A stretch of 64,000 nt of DNA from Levilactobacillus brevis. Its GTDB lineage: Bacteria > Bacillota > Bacilli > Lactobacillales > Lactobacillaceae. How positions within the stretch are numbered: the first letter of the stretch is position 1; every line of letters starts with the position of its first letter. The position numbers and the translations under genes are program-made. Positions 124-39,830 of the stretch are shown one piece after another. The stretch is from positions 1,798,001 through 1,862,000 of the forward strand of contig CP079699.1 of the NCBI GenBank assembly GCA_021383565.1, in the 5' to 3' direction. The notes under the pieces were generated by a model. The model worked only from the letters and a program-made list of their open reading frames with translations, made no database searches and was not told the origin of the DNA.

Positions 124-237
124 GCCGCCTTGCCGTTCGCCAAATCTAGGCTGGAACGCTGGGGAAGAACCGGAGCGAGCCTGAGAACCGGTCTCGTTCC
201 TCGCTTGGAACCGCCACAACCCGGCGTTTCCAAGACG
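124..237 (+). repeat. Cloverleaf-type dispersed repeat, 3'-truncated copy
   Basis: This begins with the family's conserved left end (GCCGCCTTGCCGTTCGCC) and keeps the first two internal hairpins (GGAGCGAG with CTCGTTCC, one wobble; CTTGGAA with TTCCAAG). The third hairpin and the closing end are missing. It lies between the TPP riboswitch terminator and the thiM start, so it forms part of a leader of about 320 bases on the thiM transcript. Confidence 0.75.
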
Positions 238-377
238 TCAATACTTCCGACAGACTACGCAGAAGTCGCCAACTTAGCTGAATCAACCCATCCTTGCCAA
301 ACAGCACGGCACAGCCACTTCCACCCAACACCCACTCCATCCACTAGACGTGTCCCCCAATCGACCCTACTAAAAAT

Positions 378-5197: not shown

Positions 5198-5246
5198 TTG
5201 GTGGTTGGTTCGATTGATTGATTGCTGACGAGGTCAGTTGGTCCTG

Positions 5247-5424
5247 GCCGCCTTCCGTTCGCCGAATCTGGGCTGGAACGCTGGGGAAGGCCGTTTCGAG
5301 CCATGGGGCGGTCTCGAAACTCTCTTGGAACCACCAAGGACCGGCGTTTCCAATTCGCCCACTGGTGGCTGGTTAGCCAGCCACCAGTTCCCCGGCTGAG
5401 CCCAGATTCGGCTCACTCACGGCT
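5247..5424 (+). repeat. Cloverleaf-type dispersed repeat, complete copy
   Basis: The outer stem pairs GCCGAATCTGGGCT (5261-5274) with AGCCCAGATTCGGC (5399-5412), 14 of 14. Inside are three hairpins: GTTTCGAG/CTCGAAAC, TTGGAA/TTCCAA and ACTGGTGGCTG/CAGCCACCAGT. No coding potential is credible. Together with the opposite copy at 5538-5726 it fills most of the 684-base gap before the DUF368 gene. Confidence 0.85.
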
Positions 5425-5537
5425 AAACTGATTTCAACAATAACTCCTGTTCAACCACAACCACCAAATAGCCCTGAGACCAATGACATTCGCGAATAAT
5501 TTGCCAACCTCGCAAAAACTGGGTCAACCTATCAAGT

Positions 5538-5726
5538 AGCCGAGAGTGAAGCGAGAAATGAGATCAGCCGTGGGATTCCCTTAGCGGTGGGGTTTGCCGG
5601 TTAGGGAATAGCGACTTGAAAACACGTGGGCTTCGTGGTTTCAAGCGAGTCCCGAGACTGCCCCTCAGGCTCGGGGCGTCCTGCCCACCGCGTTCCAACC
5701 CAGATTTGGTGAACGGTAAGGCGGCG
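5538..5726 (-). repeat. Cloverleaf-type dispersed repeat, diverged copy in reverse
   Basis: Read on the minus strand it has the family ends (CGCCTTACCGTTC... and ...AGTGA/CTCGGCT variant) and the three inner hairpins: CCCGAG/CTCGGG, CTTGAAA/TTTCAAG and ATTCCCT/AGGGAAT. The outer stem no longer pairs well, so this copy may be decayed. It faces the copy at 5247-5424. Confidence 0.75.
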
Positions 5727-5844
5727 GCACTAACTGATTGCAAATTAAGCCTTAAGTTCCCGCCGTTTAAGTTGCGTCCGGGATAGAGATTTGATACATT
5801 AGGACTACTAATCCGACTGTTAACTAACTGATAAGGAGTAACGT

Positions 5845-6702: not shown

Positions 6703-7279
6703 ACATAAGTGTACGACTGGAACCAAAACGCTTGTGTTTTAAATTTAGATAGCTAAGGTTGAAAGTTTGCGAACACGCTCCGATCACCAGCTGACAGGGG
6801 TGATCACCATTAAACGAGTCGTCAACGCCACCTGCGGCTGTCAGAGATTCCGGCGCTGTGGGGACCGCCTGCGGCCTGAGGAACGGTCCTCCGGCTCGGT
6901 TTGAAGCCTAGCAAAATTCGCCAGTCTCCAAACACGTCCCGCGCTGTAAGCTGACCCGGAACGTCAGCTAACACCGCTGCCACGGCTACCTTCATCTCTG
7001 ACTACCTCCGGTTATGATGGTTGAAAACCACTAAACGTACGGTGATATCGCTGGAGTAACAACGTTCGGCCAGCTTAATTGGATACCCTCAGGTAGCCGT
7101 GAGTGAGTCAAATTTGGTCTCAGCCGTGGGATTTTCCAAGAGTTCTTCTTGGAAAATGGCGCCTTTGAGACGCGGGCTGACGGCTCAAAGCGAGGGGAAA
7201 GACCGCCCTTTGGCTTGTCCCGTCCTGTACTAGTCCCTGTCAAGTTGTCATTCGAAATAATATAAAATGGATATTTACT

Positions 7280-8173
7280 CTAAGCGGCTTCATTCCAGTA
7301 TTCTACTGGGGTGAGGCCGTTTCTTTCTGGGGAACGATCCAAGTAATTAAAGTAGTGGATGCCTTCGTTTACCAGCTCCACAAACTCTCGATACGTTTTT
7401 GGCATTGGATGACGTTCCATCCAATGCGCTTTAAATTCATTCCACCAACGCTCCATTGGCGCGTTGTCGTAAGGTGTTCCTGGTCGGGACATACTGCGCA
7501 TCACTTTATGTTCTGACAGAAAGTTATTGAAAGCTTTAGCGGTGTAAGCAGCTCCACGGTCCGTATGGATCAGTGGGTGTACATCGCCAGCCTGTTCAAA
7601 AGCCTGTTTAAAAACCTGGATCTCTGCCACAGCTGTTTCTGTAGTGCTCAAAAATGAGGCGATCAGTCTCCGGCCGCATAGATCTAAAACACCACTCAGT
7701 CGGATTTTGAATTGACCCTTTGGTCCGTAAGACAACTCAGTCGAATCCGCAAGCCAAACCTGGTTGGGACCGGCGACTTTAAAGTTACGATTCAAAACAT
7801 TGTCCTGAATGTATTGTTCCTGTTCCTTGATACGTTGGCGCTTCTTAACCCGAATCTGACACTTGATATTCAAGTTACGCATAATTCGTTTAACACGCTT
7901 GATTGTTACCTTAAACGTCACCTGTTCATCATGCTGTAGATTGGACAAGATCTTGCCAGCTCCGATTGCTTGATGATGTTGATTGAACCAATAAGTGATT
8001 CGCTTTTCTAGAAGCCGCTCTTGAGTCTCCCACGGCGTTTCTTGCCGATGAAAAGACTTGTTATAAGCTTGCCGACTAACTCCGATATGCGTCAATAATG
8101 TCTTAATGGCGCCTCGCTTTCCTTGACTGACCTCACTGATTGCCTGATATGCCAGTCGATGTTGCTGATTCAC
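7280..8173 (-). CDS. IS3-family transposase OrfB (DDE integrase core)
   Basis: The 297-residue catalytic half of an IS3-type transposase. An HTH_21-like N-terminus (about 1-110) precedes an rve integrase core with the DDE acids in W-L-A-D-S-T-E, I-H-T-D-R-G-A-A-Y and A-P-M-E-R-W-W-N-E. Its GTG start overlaps the stop of orfA by four bases, and it is in the -1 frame relative to orfA, so the active OrfAB product would come from frameshifting at the A7 tract upstream. It appears intact. Confidence 0.93.
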   Translation of the reverse strand: MNQQHRLAYQAISEVSQGKRGAIKTLLTHIGVSRQAYNKSFHRQETPWETQERLLEKRITYWFNQHHQAIGAGKILSNLQHDEQVTFKVTIKRVKRIMRNLNIKCQIRVKKRQRIKEQEQYIQDNVLNRNFKVAGPNQVWLADSTELSYGPKGQFKIRLSGVLDLCGRRLIASFLSTTETAVAEIQVFKQAFEQAGDVHPLIHTDRGAAYTAKAFNNFLSEHKVMRSMSRPGTPYDNAPMERWWNEFKAHWMERHPMPKTYREFVELVNEGIHYFNYLDRSPERNGLTPVEYWNEAA

Positions 8174-8847
8174 CCCTTGTGCTGAATTTCTTGAAATTTT
8201 TTTACGAATTCTTTCAGTAATTCCATGTCGGCGACTTGACCTTCTAGTTGCTTAATCCGCAAATTGGCCTTATCTAAGTCGGTTAATTCTCGTTGTGGCT
8301 TACGGTGTCCGCGTCGATCCTCTAAGGCGTTGTAACCACCTTTCTTAGCTCTAAGCACCCACGAACGGGCTTGTTGGTAGGAGACGCTGTAATGTTCAGC
8401 TGCTTCGTTATATGAGTGGTTCTGCTTGGTAATGTACTCAACCACTTCAATACGCTCTGCCAGAGTAGTTTTTCGGCTCATCGTTGGGACCTGCTTTCTA
8501 GACGGGGTTGCCGTCACAGTTTTGTCCCTATTATACCTGGAAACCCAGTAATTTACCTGCGTAGCTGAGCGCAAACCATACTTCATTGCTACTTCTCGTT
8601 GTGAACCTTCGCCGTTCAAAAAAGCATACACGACTCTTAGCTTAAAGACCTCACTGTATCTGCGACAACCTTTAGATTCTTTAAGCCCATCAAAGCCATC
8701 TCGTTTGTACAACGCCCGCCACCGAATGACCGCCTCCTTGTCTGCCAAACCATGTTCTCTGGCAAAGCCAATATTAGTTTGACCTGATGCTTCAAACTCA
8801 TTAATCAACTCCAGCTTCTCCACGGCACTATACTTGATCTTCGACAT
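8170..8847 (-). CDS. IS3-family transposase OrfA (DNA-binding subunit)
   Basis: The protein of 225 residues has two tandem helix-turn-helix regions (about 5-60 and 60-110), a third HTH-like segment near 130-180 (T-L-A-E-R-I-E-V-V-E-Y), and a C-terminal leucine-zipper-like helix (about 190-215, L-D-K-A-N-L-R-I-K-Q-L-E-G-Q-V). This is the IS150 subgroup layout. It recognises the terminal repeats and joins OrfB by frameshift near its end. ATG 8847 follows GGAGG. Confidence 0.92.
   Translation of the reverse strand: MSKIKYSAVEKLELINEFEASGQTNIGFAREHGLADKEAVIRWRALYKRDGFDGLKESKGCRRYSEVFKLRVVYAFLNGEGSQREVAMKYGLRSATQVNYWVSRYNRDKTVTATPSRKQVPTMSRKTTLAERIEVVEYITKQNHSYNEAAEHYSVSYQQARSWVLRAKKGGYNALEDRRGHRKPQRELTDLDKANLRIKQLEGQVADMELLKEFVKKFQEIQHKG
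8197..8203 (-). promoter_or_regulatory. Candidate -1 frameshift slippery site of the IS3 element
   Basis: On the minus strand the orfA frame reads GTA AAA AAA TTT, an A-AAA-AAA heptamer. A -1 slip continues without a stop into the orfB frame and passes its GTG start, producing an OrfAB fusion as known for IS3 elements. Confidence 0.6.
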
Positions 8848-9055
8848 GTCATATTCCCTCCGTTGATTGTCAGATGAATTATATTATTTCATTTGACAAC
8901 CCCAAAGGGATCATAACATCCCTACCCACAGCGATCCAGACCAAATTTGGCGAACGGTAAGGCGGACAACACGTGACTAGTATATTATGCGTTATCCTTG
9001 TCACACTAGGGATTTTAGCTGTTTTCTAACTTTCAGCCCTTAGTTACTTTAACAA

Positions 9056-23387: not shown

Positions 23388-23433
23388 TGACTGCTTTACT
23401 AGAATTATTGGGTTACGTTGGTCTGAGCTGGTC

Positions 23434-23615
23434 GCCTTACCGTTCTCAGAATATGAGCTGGATCGCGGTGGGCAGGACGCCCCGAGCCTGAGAAACGGTC
23501 TCGGCGCTCGCTTGGAACCACCAAGGATCGGTGTTTCCAAGTCGCCATTATCTAACCGGCTGACGCCGCTGAGATAATCCCACGGCTGAGCTCATATTCT
23601 GCTTCACTCACGGCT
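23434..23615 (+). repeat. Cloverleaf-type dispersed repeat, complete copy
   Basis: The outer stem CAGAATATGAGCT (23447-23459) pairs with AGCTCATATTCTG (23589-23601), 13 of 13. Inner hairpins are CCGAG/CTCGG, CTTGGAA/TTCCAAG and ATTATCT/AGATAAT. The outer arms share almost nothing with those at 5261 or 33468, yet pair equally well. Confidence 0.85.
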
Positions 23616-23639
23616 AAGTTAGCGGTCAGCCTCGACTTT

Positions 23640-23905
23640 GACCTGTTTACGTGACACACAAAAGTAGCTGCCAACACGGCCGGAGGCGGCCAGGAATGGA
23701 GCCAGCCGTGACGACCCAGTTAGCTGGCGTTTTGAGCCAGGTTACTGGGTGGGACGACTTGGGAGACTTGCGGTCCTGGCAAGGCTTCCAAGCGAGGTGG
23801 AAGCCCGCTTCTTGGCTGGAACCGTTCCCCACAGCAGGCGGAATTCCTGGCAGTTGCAGGCCACTTTGTCCGCTCATATTTTGCAAACGGTAAGGCGGCC
23901 AGTTA
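23640..23905 (+). repeat. Diverged composite-repeat remnant
   Basis: The stretch GGCCGGAGGCGGCCAGGAAT and the following TAGCCGTGAC-like segment (about 23679-23730) echo the first part of the composite repeat at 33640-33924. It ends in the cloverleaf family's AACGGTAAGGCGG. The similarity is clear but patchy. No gene is credible here. Confidence 0.5.
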
Positions 23906-33335: not shown

Positions 33336-33368
33336 GTTACTCCTCTCCCCGTTTACAATTATCTTCAA

Positions 33369-33924
33369 CTGCAAGCTGAAAGCTAAAAAACAGCTAGAAT
33401 CCGTAGTGTGATAAGGATAACGCCCACTATAATAGGGTAGCCGCGCGCTGACCGCCTTACCGTTCGCCAAATTTGGTCTGGATCGCGGTGGGAAGGATCG
33501 GGAAAAGCCAAAGGACGGTCTTTTCCCTCGCTTTGAGCCGTCAGCCCGCGTCTCAAAGACGCCATTTTCCAAGTAGAACACTTGGAAAATCCCACGGCTG
33601 AGACCAAATTTGACTCACTCACGGCTGCGTGAAGGGTATCCAATTAAACTGGCTGAACGTTGCCACGCCAACGATTTCACCCGTTTAGTAGCTTTCAACC
33701 ATCGTAACCGGAGGCAGCCAGAGATGGTGGTAGCCGTGACAGCGGTGTTAGCTGAGCATCAGCTTACAGCGCGGGACGTGTTTGGAGACTGGTGGATTTT
33801 GCTAGGCTTCAAACCGAATCGGAGGACCGCTTCTCAAGCCGCAGGCGGTGGTGATGACTCGTTTAATGGCGGTAAACCTTGCCAGTTGGGGACAGGAGCG
33901 TGTTCGTAAACTTTCAACCTTTAG
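33369..33924 (-). repeat. Composite MITE-like repeat, copy 3 (reverse), with 7-bp duplication
   Basis: The 556-base element ends CTGCAAGCTGAAAG (33369) and CTTTCAACCTTTAG (33924), an imperfect inverted pair. It is flanked by TCTTCAA on both sides (33362-33368 and 33925-33931), a perfect 7-bp target-site duplication. It contains a cloverleaf repeat (33454-33626) and no credible ORF. Confidence 0.85.
33454..33626 (+). repeat. Cloverleaf-type dispersed repeat, complete copy
   Basis: The outer stem CAAATTTGGTCT (33468-33479) pairs with AGACCAAATTTG (33601-33612). Inner hairpins are GGGAAAAG/CTTTTCCC, CTTTGAG/CTCAAAG and ATTTTCCAAG/CTTGGAAAAT. It lies within the composite element. Confidence 0.85.
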
Positions 33925-34035
33925 TCTTCAATATAAACCGTCCTGGGAGAATTACCAGTCCAGCGTCCGAAATTTTAGAAGTTTGCTAGCTTCTATAGGT
34001 AAACTTAAGCATTGAACCGAAGCGACTGTTGGACA

Positions 34036-39127: not shown

Positions 39128-39326
39128 TTTTCTAAAAATCTCCCCGATAATTCAAATTACACCGTATCGACAGAGGCGCCATCAGCCCCTAACTGATCGC
39201 GTCTCTATCCGATCGTCAGCCACGTGAACTGGCCGACTGAAGCTTTTCTCATTGTACCATTTACCCTCAGCAAAATGGGGGTTGGTCAATGTAAATTTCG
39301 CTTGCACAACACATTTAATAAAACTG

Positions 39327-39830
39327 CTGAAGATTGAAAGTCCGCAAACACACTCTGGTACTCAGCTGATGAGGTTTACCGCCATTAACCGAGTCACCAA
39401 CACCACCGGAGGCAGTCAGAGATTCCAGGACTCAAAGCGTCAGCTAACACCGCTGTCACGGCTACCTCCATCTCCGACTACCTCCGGTTACGGTGGTTGA
39501 AACCCATTAAACTTACGATAACATCGCTGGCGTGACCACGTTCTGCCGATTTAATTGGATACACTTCAAGTAGCCGTGAGTGAGTCAAATTTGGTCTCAG
39601 CCGTGGGATTTTCCAAGTATTCTGCTTGGAAAATGGCGTCTTTGAGACGCGGGCTGACGGCTCAAAGCGAGGGACAAGACCGCTCTTTGGCTTGTCCCCG
39701 TCCTGCCCACCGCGATCCAGACAAAATTTGGCGAACGGTAAGGCGACCAGTACGCGACTAGCATATTATAGTAGGCGTTATCCTTGTCACACTAAGGATT
39801 CTAGCTACTTTCTAGCTTTCAACCTTCAGT
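39327..39830 (+). repeat. Composite MITE-like repeat, copy 2
   Basis: The element begins CTGAAGATTGAAAG and ends CTTTCAACCTTCAG (13 of 14 inverted matches), about 504 bases. It is shorter than the other two because part of the first half is missing. It lies between yfhO and the DUF1801 gene and contains the cloverleaf repeat at 39572-39745. No clear flanking duplication. Confidence 0.82.
39572..39745 (-). repeat. Cloverleaf-type dispersed repeat, complete copy
   Basis: Inner hairpins GGGACAAG/CTTGTCCC, TTTGAG/CTCAAA and ATTTTCCAAG/CTTGGAAAAT; the outer arms pair 12 of 14. Relative to the copy at 33454 the first hairpin differs by paired A-to-C/T-to-G changes. Confidence 0.85.

Follow-up and report, generated by a model that had tools for sequence, protein, structure and literature searches.

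A dispersed repeat of paired cloverleaves in Lactobacillaceae, probably a mobile DNA element, that bears the signature of folded DNA

The repeat in the window

The 64-kb stretch of Levilactobacillus brevis DNA that was analysed (the window), positions 1798001-1862000 of contig C1 of its genome, contains, at positions 5244-5728, a complete compact element made of two cloverleaf-forming arms in inverted orientation, arm A at 5247-5425 on the forward strand and its inverted second arm at 5537-5724 on the reverse strand, with outer ends CCGCC and GGCGG. Both arms are matched by a covariance model, R1, at 154 and 145 bits respectively; to build it, 7 truncated or internally deleted copies were set aside from a diverse set of 48, leaving 41. 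A preliminary description of this DNA had listed seven dispersed copies of the repeat, entering those at 5247 and 5538 separately. All seven are real, as R1 matches each of them in an unfiltered scan of the 64 kb, and the stems quoted for them can be read directly in the sequence. The stretch 5247-5424 is therefore a genuine repeat, but only one arm of a larger unit: since arms of this family have inverted partners on their inner side (see below), those listed at 5247 and 5538 together make up a single element.

A second complete compact element occupies 23428-23902 (forward strand) and is bounded by 31-bp inverted repeats (23428-23458 and 23872-23902). Its arm A (23432-23616, forward) scores 172 bits with R1, and its inverted second arm (23677-23864, reverse), which is of a diverged type that we call B, scores 36.4 bits. 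Three other copies are of a longer type with outer terminal inverted repeats. The first, of 558 bp (33368-33925, forward), has outer inverted repeats like ACTRAAGGTTGAAAG, and is the only one of the three flanked by a direct target duplication, none having been found for the other two. Its arm A (33452-33627, forward) reaches 192 bits, R1 also matching the opposite strand of this arm (33457-33628, reverse) at 17 bits, while its B-type second arm (33695-33849, given on the forward strand and inverted relative to A) has no model match and was recognised by cross-species conservation; the inner-side inverted partners found elsewhere lead us to read this conserved downstream region as a diverged second arm. 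The second long-type element (39326-39830, reverse, 505 bp between its outer inverted repeats) has an arm A at 39571-39746 (reverse, 185 bits) and a partly deleted second arm. The third (6751-9044, reverse, 2294 bp between its ends) has been split by a 1693-bp insertion sequence (IS) of the IS3 family (7226-8918, reverse), which lies at the base of the first hairpin and is flanked by a 3-bp duplication, GGA. The interrupted arm is matched at 7094-7263 (reverse, 104 bits); its inner part is at 7094-7225 and its outer part at about 8919-8965, within an outer piece that the R1 scan matches at 8875-8965 (reverse). The inverted B-type second arm of this element is at 6827-7014, matched on the opposite (forward) strand at 40.2 bits. 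A decayed arm is present at 125-300 (forward, 85.6 bits); it lies between a TPP riboswitch (416-521, reverse) and what appears, on reading by eye, to be the start of the left-hand gene.

Complete copies had been described as an outer stem enclosing three hairpins, and the RNA fold of the copy at 33447 bears this out (z = -4.4, with none of 200 shuffled sequences equally stable). The copy at 5244 also folds stably (z = -7.6), although in its RNA fold of lowest energy the pairing of the inner part is somewhat different.

Architecture and distribution of the family

An arm consists of an outer stem, an inner continuation of that stem and three hairpins, and is flanked by the conserved segments CCGCCTTACCGTTC and CTCACTCACGGCTA; across the family, the number of hairpins inside the outer stem is two or three. 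Hairpins one and two have the same tip, AGCC-loop-CG(G)TCT, in which there is either an unpaired T or a C-T mismatch, and the tip motif with the unpaired T can be parsed in 159 of 168 arms (9 do not parse). The inverted partner arm lies about 80 nt beyond the inner end, and the whole unit measures about 480 bp. When the best 150 matches per search were taken, 183 strong arms were obtained, 17 of which were too close to the end of their locus. Among the remaining 166, an inverted partner, recognised by a model match or by the B-arm motif, is found on the inner side of at least 90 and on the outer side of none; by R1 matches alone the numbers are 53 and 0.

Units come in two layouts: the compact inverted pair, and the long type, found in several species, in which the pair lies inside outer end repeats ACTRAAGGTTGAAAG. 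In the genome from which the window comes, 42 such ends were found in forward and 48 in reverse orientation with up to two mismatches, compared with 5 and 6 for a control. Direct duplications of 5 bp or more flank 15 of 27 long-type end pairs versus 9 of 400 mismatched flank pairs, while listing the element ends made no target duplication evident for the compact elements at 23428-23902 and 5244-5728. Those end pairs more than 1 kb apart that were inspected proved to be MITEs split by the IS3-family IS. Two loci (L182 and L183) hold derivatives of about 250-260 bp that retain the outer ends and have lost most of the interior.

The genome of the window contains at least 130 R1 matches at E <= 0.001 (among the best 150 of 850 candidates scored), and the 130 that were listed are all on its main contig, C1. 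With strict filters, R1 finds the repeat in 41 of 148 genomes (own included) and in 33 of the 35 genomes of the genus, i.e. our own and 34 other Levilactobacillus genomes; the two that have no match are G021 and G031. Counts of the arm-end pattern within the genus range from about background to more than 150 per genome, and the matches listed in the pattern scan include L. brevis, L. hammesii, L. enshiensis, L. tujiorum, L. tongjiangensis, L. yonginensis, L. suantsaiihabitans and Lactobacillus sp. HBUAS51381. A broader model, R2, built from 35 arms of which three are typical and the remainder divergent, matched 28 of 395 genomes sampled from the order, 24 of them from seven genera of the same family; adding a genome matched by R1 (G077) gives eight genera of Lactobacillaceae. 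The other four positive genomes belong to another family, with one weak match each. In the other genera the stem sequences differ, yet most arms still fold as the same cloverleaf, an exception being an arm at L356 whose lowest-energy DNA fold contains none; inverted pairs occur there as well (loci L354, L358, L367, L368, L377, L381 and L387).

Covariation and the nature of the folded molecule

That the stems covary beyond what shared descent would produce, as had been claimed from the window, is supported. We aligned 168 distinct arms in 175 columns (15 of the 183 best matches were dropped as duplicates or because of their length) and compared them with a tree-aware null in which substitutions were re-dealt on a FastTree tree in 60 simulations. 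Nine of 48 annotated pairs covary at E < 0.05, versus none of 14,658 other pairs and none when partners were slid by 1-3 positions. Of the 40 strongest covarying pairs 19 belong to the annotated structure; at many stem pairs there is too little variation to inform the test. A broad set comprises 48 distinct arms, most of which come from other genera; 91% of its cells pair. There, in an alignment that was itself fitted to the structure, both partners have changed in 517 cells, compared with 146 after shuffling, 39 of 47 pairs show change in both partners, and covariation scores 0.53, compared with 0.13 for shuffles and at most 0.085 for slid partners.

From covariation the preliminary description had moved straight on to selection on a fold, and this step is less airtight than the covariation itself. 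Template-switch correction of imperfect palindromes can yield compensatory changes without selection. One alternative reading, which we find improbable, is that the repeat is an ordinary MITE, the palindromic interior of which is maintained by template switching or by gene conversion between the arms and not by selection on the fold. It would agree with the dominance of Watson-Crick double changes (parsimony on the tree gives 228 changes from one Watson-Crick pair to another, versus 133 to a G-T or A-C pair, with 67 to other mispairs), with the classical terminal repeats and target duplications of the long type, and with the existence of internal deletion derivatives. On the other hand, the first hairpin has kept the unpaired T of its tip beside a changing stem, although blind correction of a palindrome should erase it, and this uncorrected bulge argues against template switching as the whole explanation; the same fold, moreover, recurs in eight genera and has a strong strand preference.

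The fold had been proposed to be that of an RNA or of single-stranded DNA. We can narrow this choice: the data favour DNA, though they do not settle the matter. In 180 aligned rows the annotated pairs comprise 8243 Watson-Crick, 49 G-T, 187 A-C and 117 other combinations, so that G-T makes up 0.6% of pairs, versus 15% in the RNase P RNA of the genus; read on the other strand, G-U accounts for 2.2%. The parsimony changes to G-T or A-C divide into 44 and 89, and an alignment-free count over the first hairpin (the 159 of 168 arms that parse) gives 59 A-C versus 8 G-T. The broad set shows 1565 Watson-Crick, 53 A-C and 19 G-T pairs once two misassigned pairs are left out. By comparison, the RNase P RNA of 30 genomes of the genus has 2689 Watson-Crick, 473 G-T and 1 A-C, with 32 changes to G-T and 1 to A-C, the single A-C being partly a matter of construction since the RNAalifold consensus admits G-U and not A-C. 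Tolerance of G-U combined with exclusion of A-C, as in functional RNA, is thus seen on neither strand of the element. On the complementary strand, origins of G-T outnumber those of A-C only by a factor of two, an excess that would fit a situation in which it is DNA pairing that matters and G-T is the milder mismatch. Mutation bias may also contribute to the excess of A-C over G-T, as in unpaired columns G>A exceeds C>T (51 vs 28 per 1000).

When DNA energies are used, the more stable fold is that of the strand complementary to the one that we aligned, in 165 of 168 arms from Levilactobacillus, in 31 of 32 divergent arms and in 71 of 72 weaker matches (mostly second arms), and in both arms the 3' end of this better-folding strand points outward, to the end of the element. 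RNA energies prefer the same strand in 164 of 168, 26 of 32 and 68 of 72, and in either case these counts come from related sequences and not from independent trials. Since both sets of energies point to the same strand, this preference by itself does not tell a DNA fold from an RNA fold.

The main alternative to a DNA fold is a structured RNA, in which the favoured strand would be transcribed, either through the element or outward from its middle, and the cloverleaf would act as RNA. We consider this unlikely. It is consistent with the covariation in both sets of arms, with the RNA energies just given and with an enrichment of copies between convergent genes (see below), but it has to contend with the low G-U share on either strand (0.6% or 2.2%, against 15%), with A-C mismatches, which the RNase P control excludes and the element does not, and with the lack of an orientation preference among copies between co-directional genes. 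A comparison with Rfam, which had been suggested, found no curated family above cut-off over the element: in the window only the TPP riboswitch was matched, no family was matched in 33368-33925, and in nine divergent loci nothing was matched over the element, a T-box beside it in one locus being the only match.

What keeps the RNA reading alive is an overlap with SSRC8 (Rfam RF02616), described as a Streptococcus pyogenes sRNA in PMC3675131. The weak R2 matches in the four genomes of another family (loci L397-L400, at around 1501-1665) also match positions 138-242 of SSRC8, on the strand opposite to the R2 match, which is the strand favoured here. There is, however, a single match per genome and its score is below the Rfam gathering cut-off, so the relation may be due to chance. 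The stretch at L397 had no match when searched against phages. The reading frames next to it were read by eye as purD and purE.

Mobility and genomic context

The view that the repeat is mobile and related to transposition, also put forward earlier, is supported by the target duplications of the long type and by empty orthologous sites. At the one site that we examined, that of the 23.4-kb copy, two species have the element and four do not, with short gaps in its place in G010, G027, G028 and G031. In G017 (C34:7842-8278, loci L308/L338) the element at this site has the opposite orientation, which suggests flipping or an independent insertion. The most similar among 30 arms compared from our genome are 97.7% alike, which gives no sign of recent movement.

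Copies are nearly always intergenic: by a crude frame caller only one of 150 falls within a reading frame longer than 900 bp, and on this basis we rejected a coding repeat. Of these 150 copies, 57 lie between convergent, 74 between co-directional and 18 between divergent genes, whereas the background, taken from gaps of 50 bp or more in the longer loci, is 105, 265 and 117. Convergent gaps are therefore favoured, and co-directional copies point either way equally often (37:37). The spacing of 83 strong copies in our genome is Poisson-like (CV 1.1). Regular spacing or orientation by replichore was also looked for, and none was clear (51 of 83 copies agree at the best-fitting of the origins tried).

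These observations also bear on the possibility of a host-useful landmark, i.e. a site bound by gyrase or by a nucleoid or repair protein, as with REP/BIME sequences, which spread once and was then kept by selection. Its high copy number, the retention of the fold by divergent copies and the restriction of the 130 listed matches to the main contig would suit such a role, as would the searches of plasmids and phages for the element, which gave no match, an outcome that is odd for an active mobile element. Poisson-like spacing, the lack of a clear replichore bias and a copy number that differs widely between species all speak against it, and we regard this reading as very unlikely.

The IS at 7226-8918 encodes an IS3-family transposase with rve and HTH domains. 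Seven full copies are present in our genome, six of which are inserted into cloverleaf arms at what is, to within two bases, the same position, where the first hairpin follows on the inner part of the outer stem, the seventh being elsewhere; two of the six have identical left flanks and may not be independent. Among 12 distinct copies that we read (in the window and at loci L179, L283, L292, L296, L299, L300, L270, L284, L293, L297 and L271), ten have a 3-bp duplication, one has 2 bp and one 4 bp. Five full relatives, 74-75% alike (four in G028 and one in G019), lie in or beside terminator-like hairpins, this appearance being clear in four of the five. The choice of site may reflect the fold, and sequence-specific targeting could account for it too. 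In being a target of an IS3-family IS the element resembles REPs, for which targeting by IS3-family and other ISs is described in PMC1525189.

A TnpA-REP type (Y1) transposase had been proposed as a partner. The Y1 domain (PF01797) was matched in 23 of the 35 genomes of the genus, and all 12 genomes that have no such match carry R1 matches, strong ones in G030 and G012; conversely, G021 and G031 have Y1 and no R1 match. The distribution of Y1 thus does not track that of the element, and we rejected this transposase as a requirement. We also considered an autonomous version with cargo between wide-spaced inverted arms (L128 and L175) and rejected it: the frames in these two intervals look like host genes, and no transposase-type cargo gene was seen in them by eye. 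That these searches brought up no partner enzyme counts against a mobile element.

Relation to known repeats and proposed explanation

The repeat is absent from the catalogues that we searched, and a keyword-level search of open-access literature, which mostly leaves out subscription journals, found no account of such a repeat in Levilactobacillus. Its closest counterparts in layout are REPINs. REP doublets of this kind are described as inverted, extragenic, present in high copy, randomly placed and predicted to fold as single-stranded DNA (PMC3116915), and our element likewise consists of inverted doublets of folding units, is extragenic and placed at random, and reaches high copy numbers. 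REPs, however, are palindromes of 20-40 bp (PMC3733652), whereas each unit here is a multi-branched cloverleaf of 120-190 nt with three or four stems, and, in contrast to the REPIN/RAYT system, the element is present in genomes that have no match to a Y1 transposase. The element is thus REPIN-like in layout, yet larger and without the tyrosine transposase.

As in bacterial MITEs (PMC10969869), copies are non-coding, hundreds of bp long and intergenic, and in the long type there are terminal inverted repeats and target duplications of 5-6 bp. The element differs from MITEs in an interior fold that is under covariation and common to several genera, and in the compact type, for which a target duplication is not clear. 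Among the end pairs inspected no parent IS was found. Another Firmicutes repeat, bcr1 of the Bacillus cereus group, is about 150 bp long with a conserved structure and mobile features (PMC2267715, PMC3733652). The two are alike in being structured, mobile-like repeats of Firmicutes, and are set side by side here by description only. We know of no inverted-pair layout in bcr1.

Taken together, we think it rather probable that the repeats are mobile DNA elements of a non-autonomous kind, which form a family in Lactobacillaceae and are recognised through their folded arms. The functional fold would be that of DNA, on the strand whose 3' end faces the end of the element, and would form when this strand is single-stranded, as in replication, or extruded. 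We infer that the arms, once folded, are recognised by a dedicated enzyme by which the whole unit is moved or copied, in the manner proposed for RAYT transposases acting on the inverted REP doublets of REPINs. Long-type copies also sit within a classical pair of transposon ends (ACTRAAGGTTGAAAG, with a target duplication of 5-6 bp), which carries them. A stronger version, which we consider conceivable but doubtful, is that of an undescribed single-strand DNA mobility system present in at least eight genera, in which a recombinase or transposase other than Y1 would act on inverted cloverleaves with bulged tips, on strands with 3' ends facing the ends of the element, and would have amplified and diversified the doublets.

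If the preferred explanation, a mobile element recognised by its DNA fold, is true, food-relevant lactobacilli harbour a large family of interspersed repeats in which evolution keeps multi-branched DNA folds and not sequence. Such a family would offer a natural system in which to study DNA folds in vivo and a lead to a DNA-handling enzyme. It would also be a caution for RNA discovery, since intergenic repeats may covary strongly without being RNA; counts of G-U versus A-C, with RNase P RNA as control, can help in separating DNA from RNA.

Two minor features of individual copies may be added. At one locus (L393, 922-1656) three direct cloverleaf copies are followed by an inverted one, forming a BIME-like array. 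A promoter-like TATAAT precedes arm A in copies of our genome and is absent from the tongjiangensis/yonginensis consensus.
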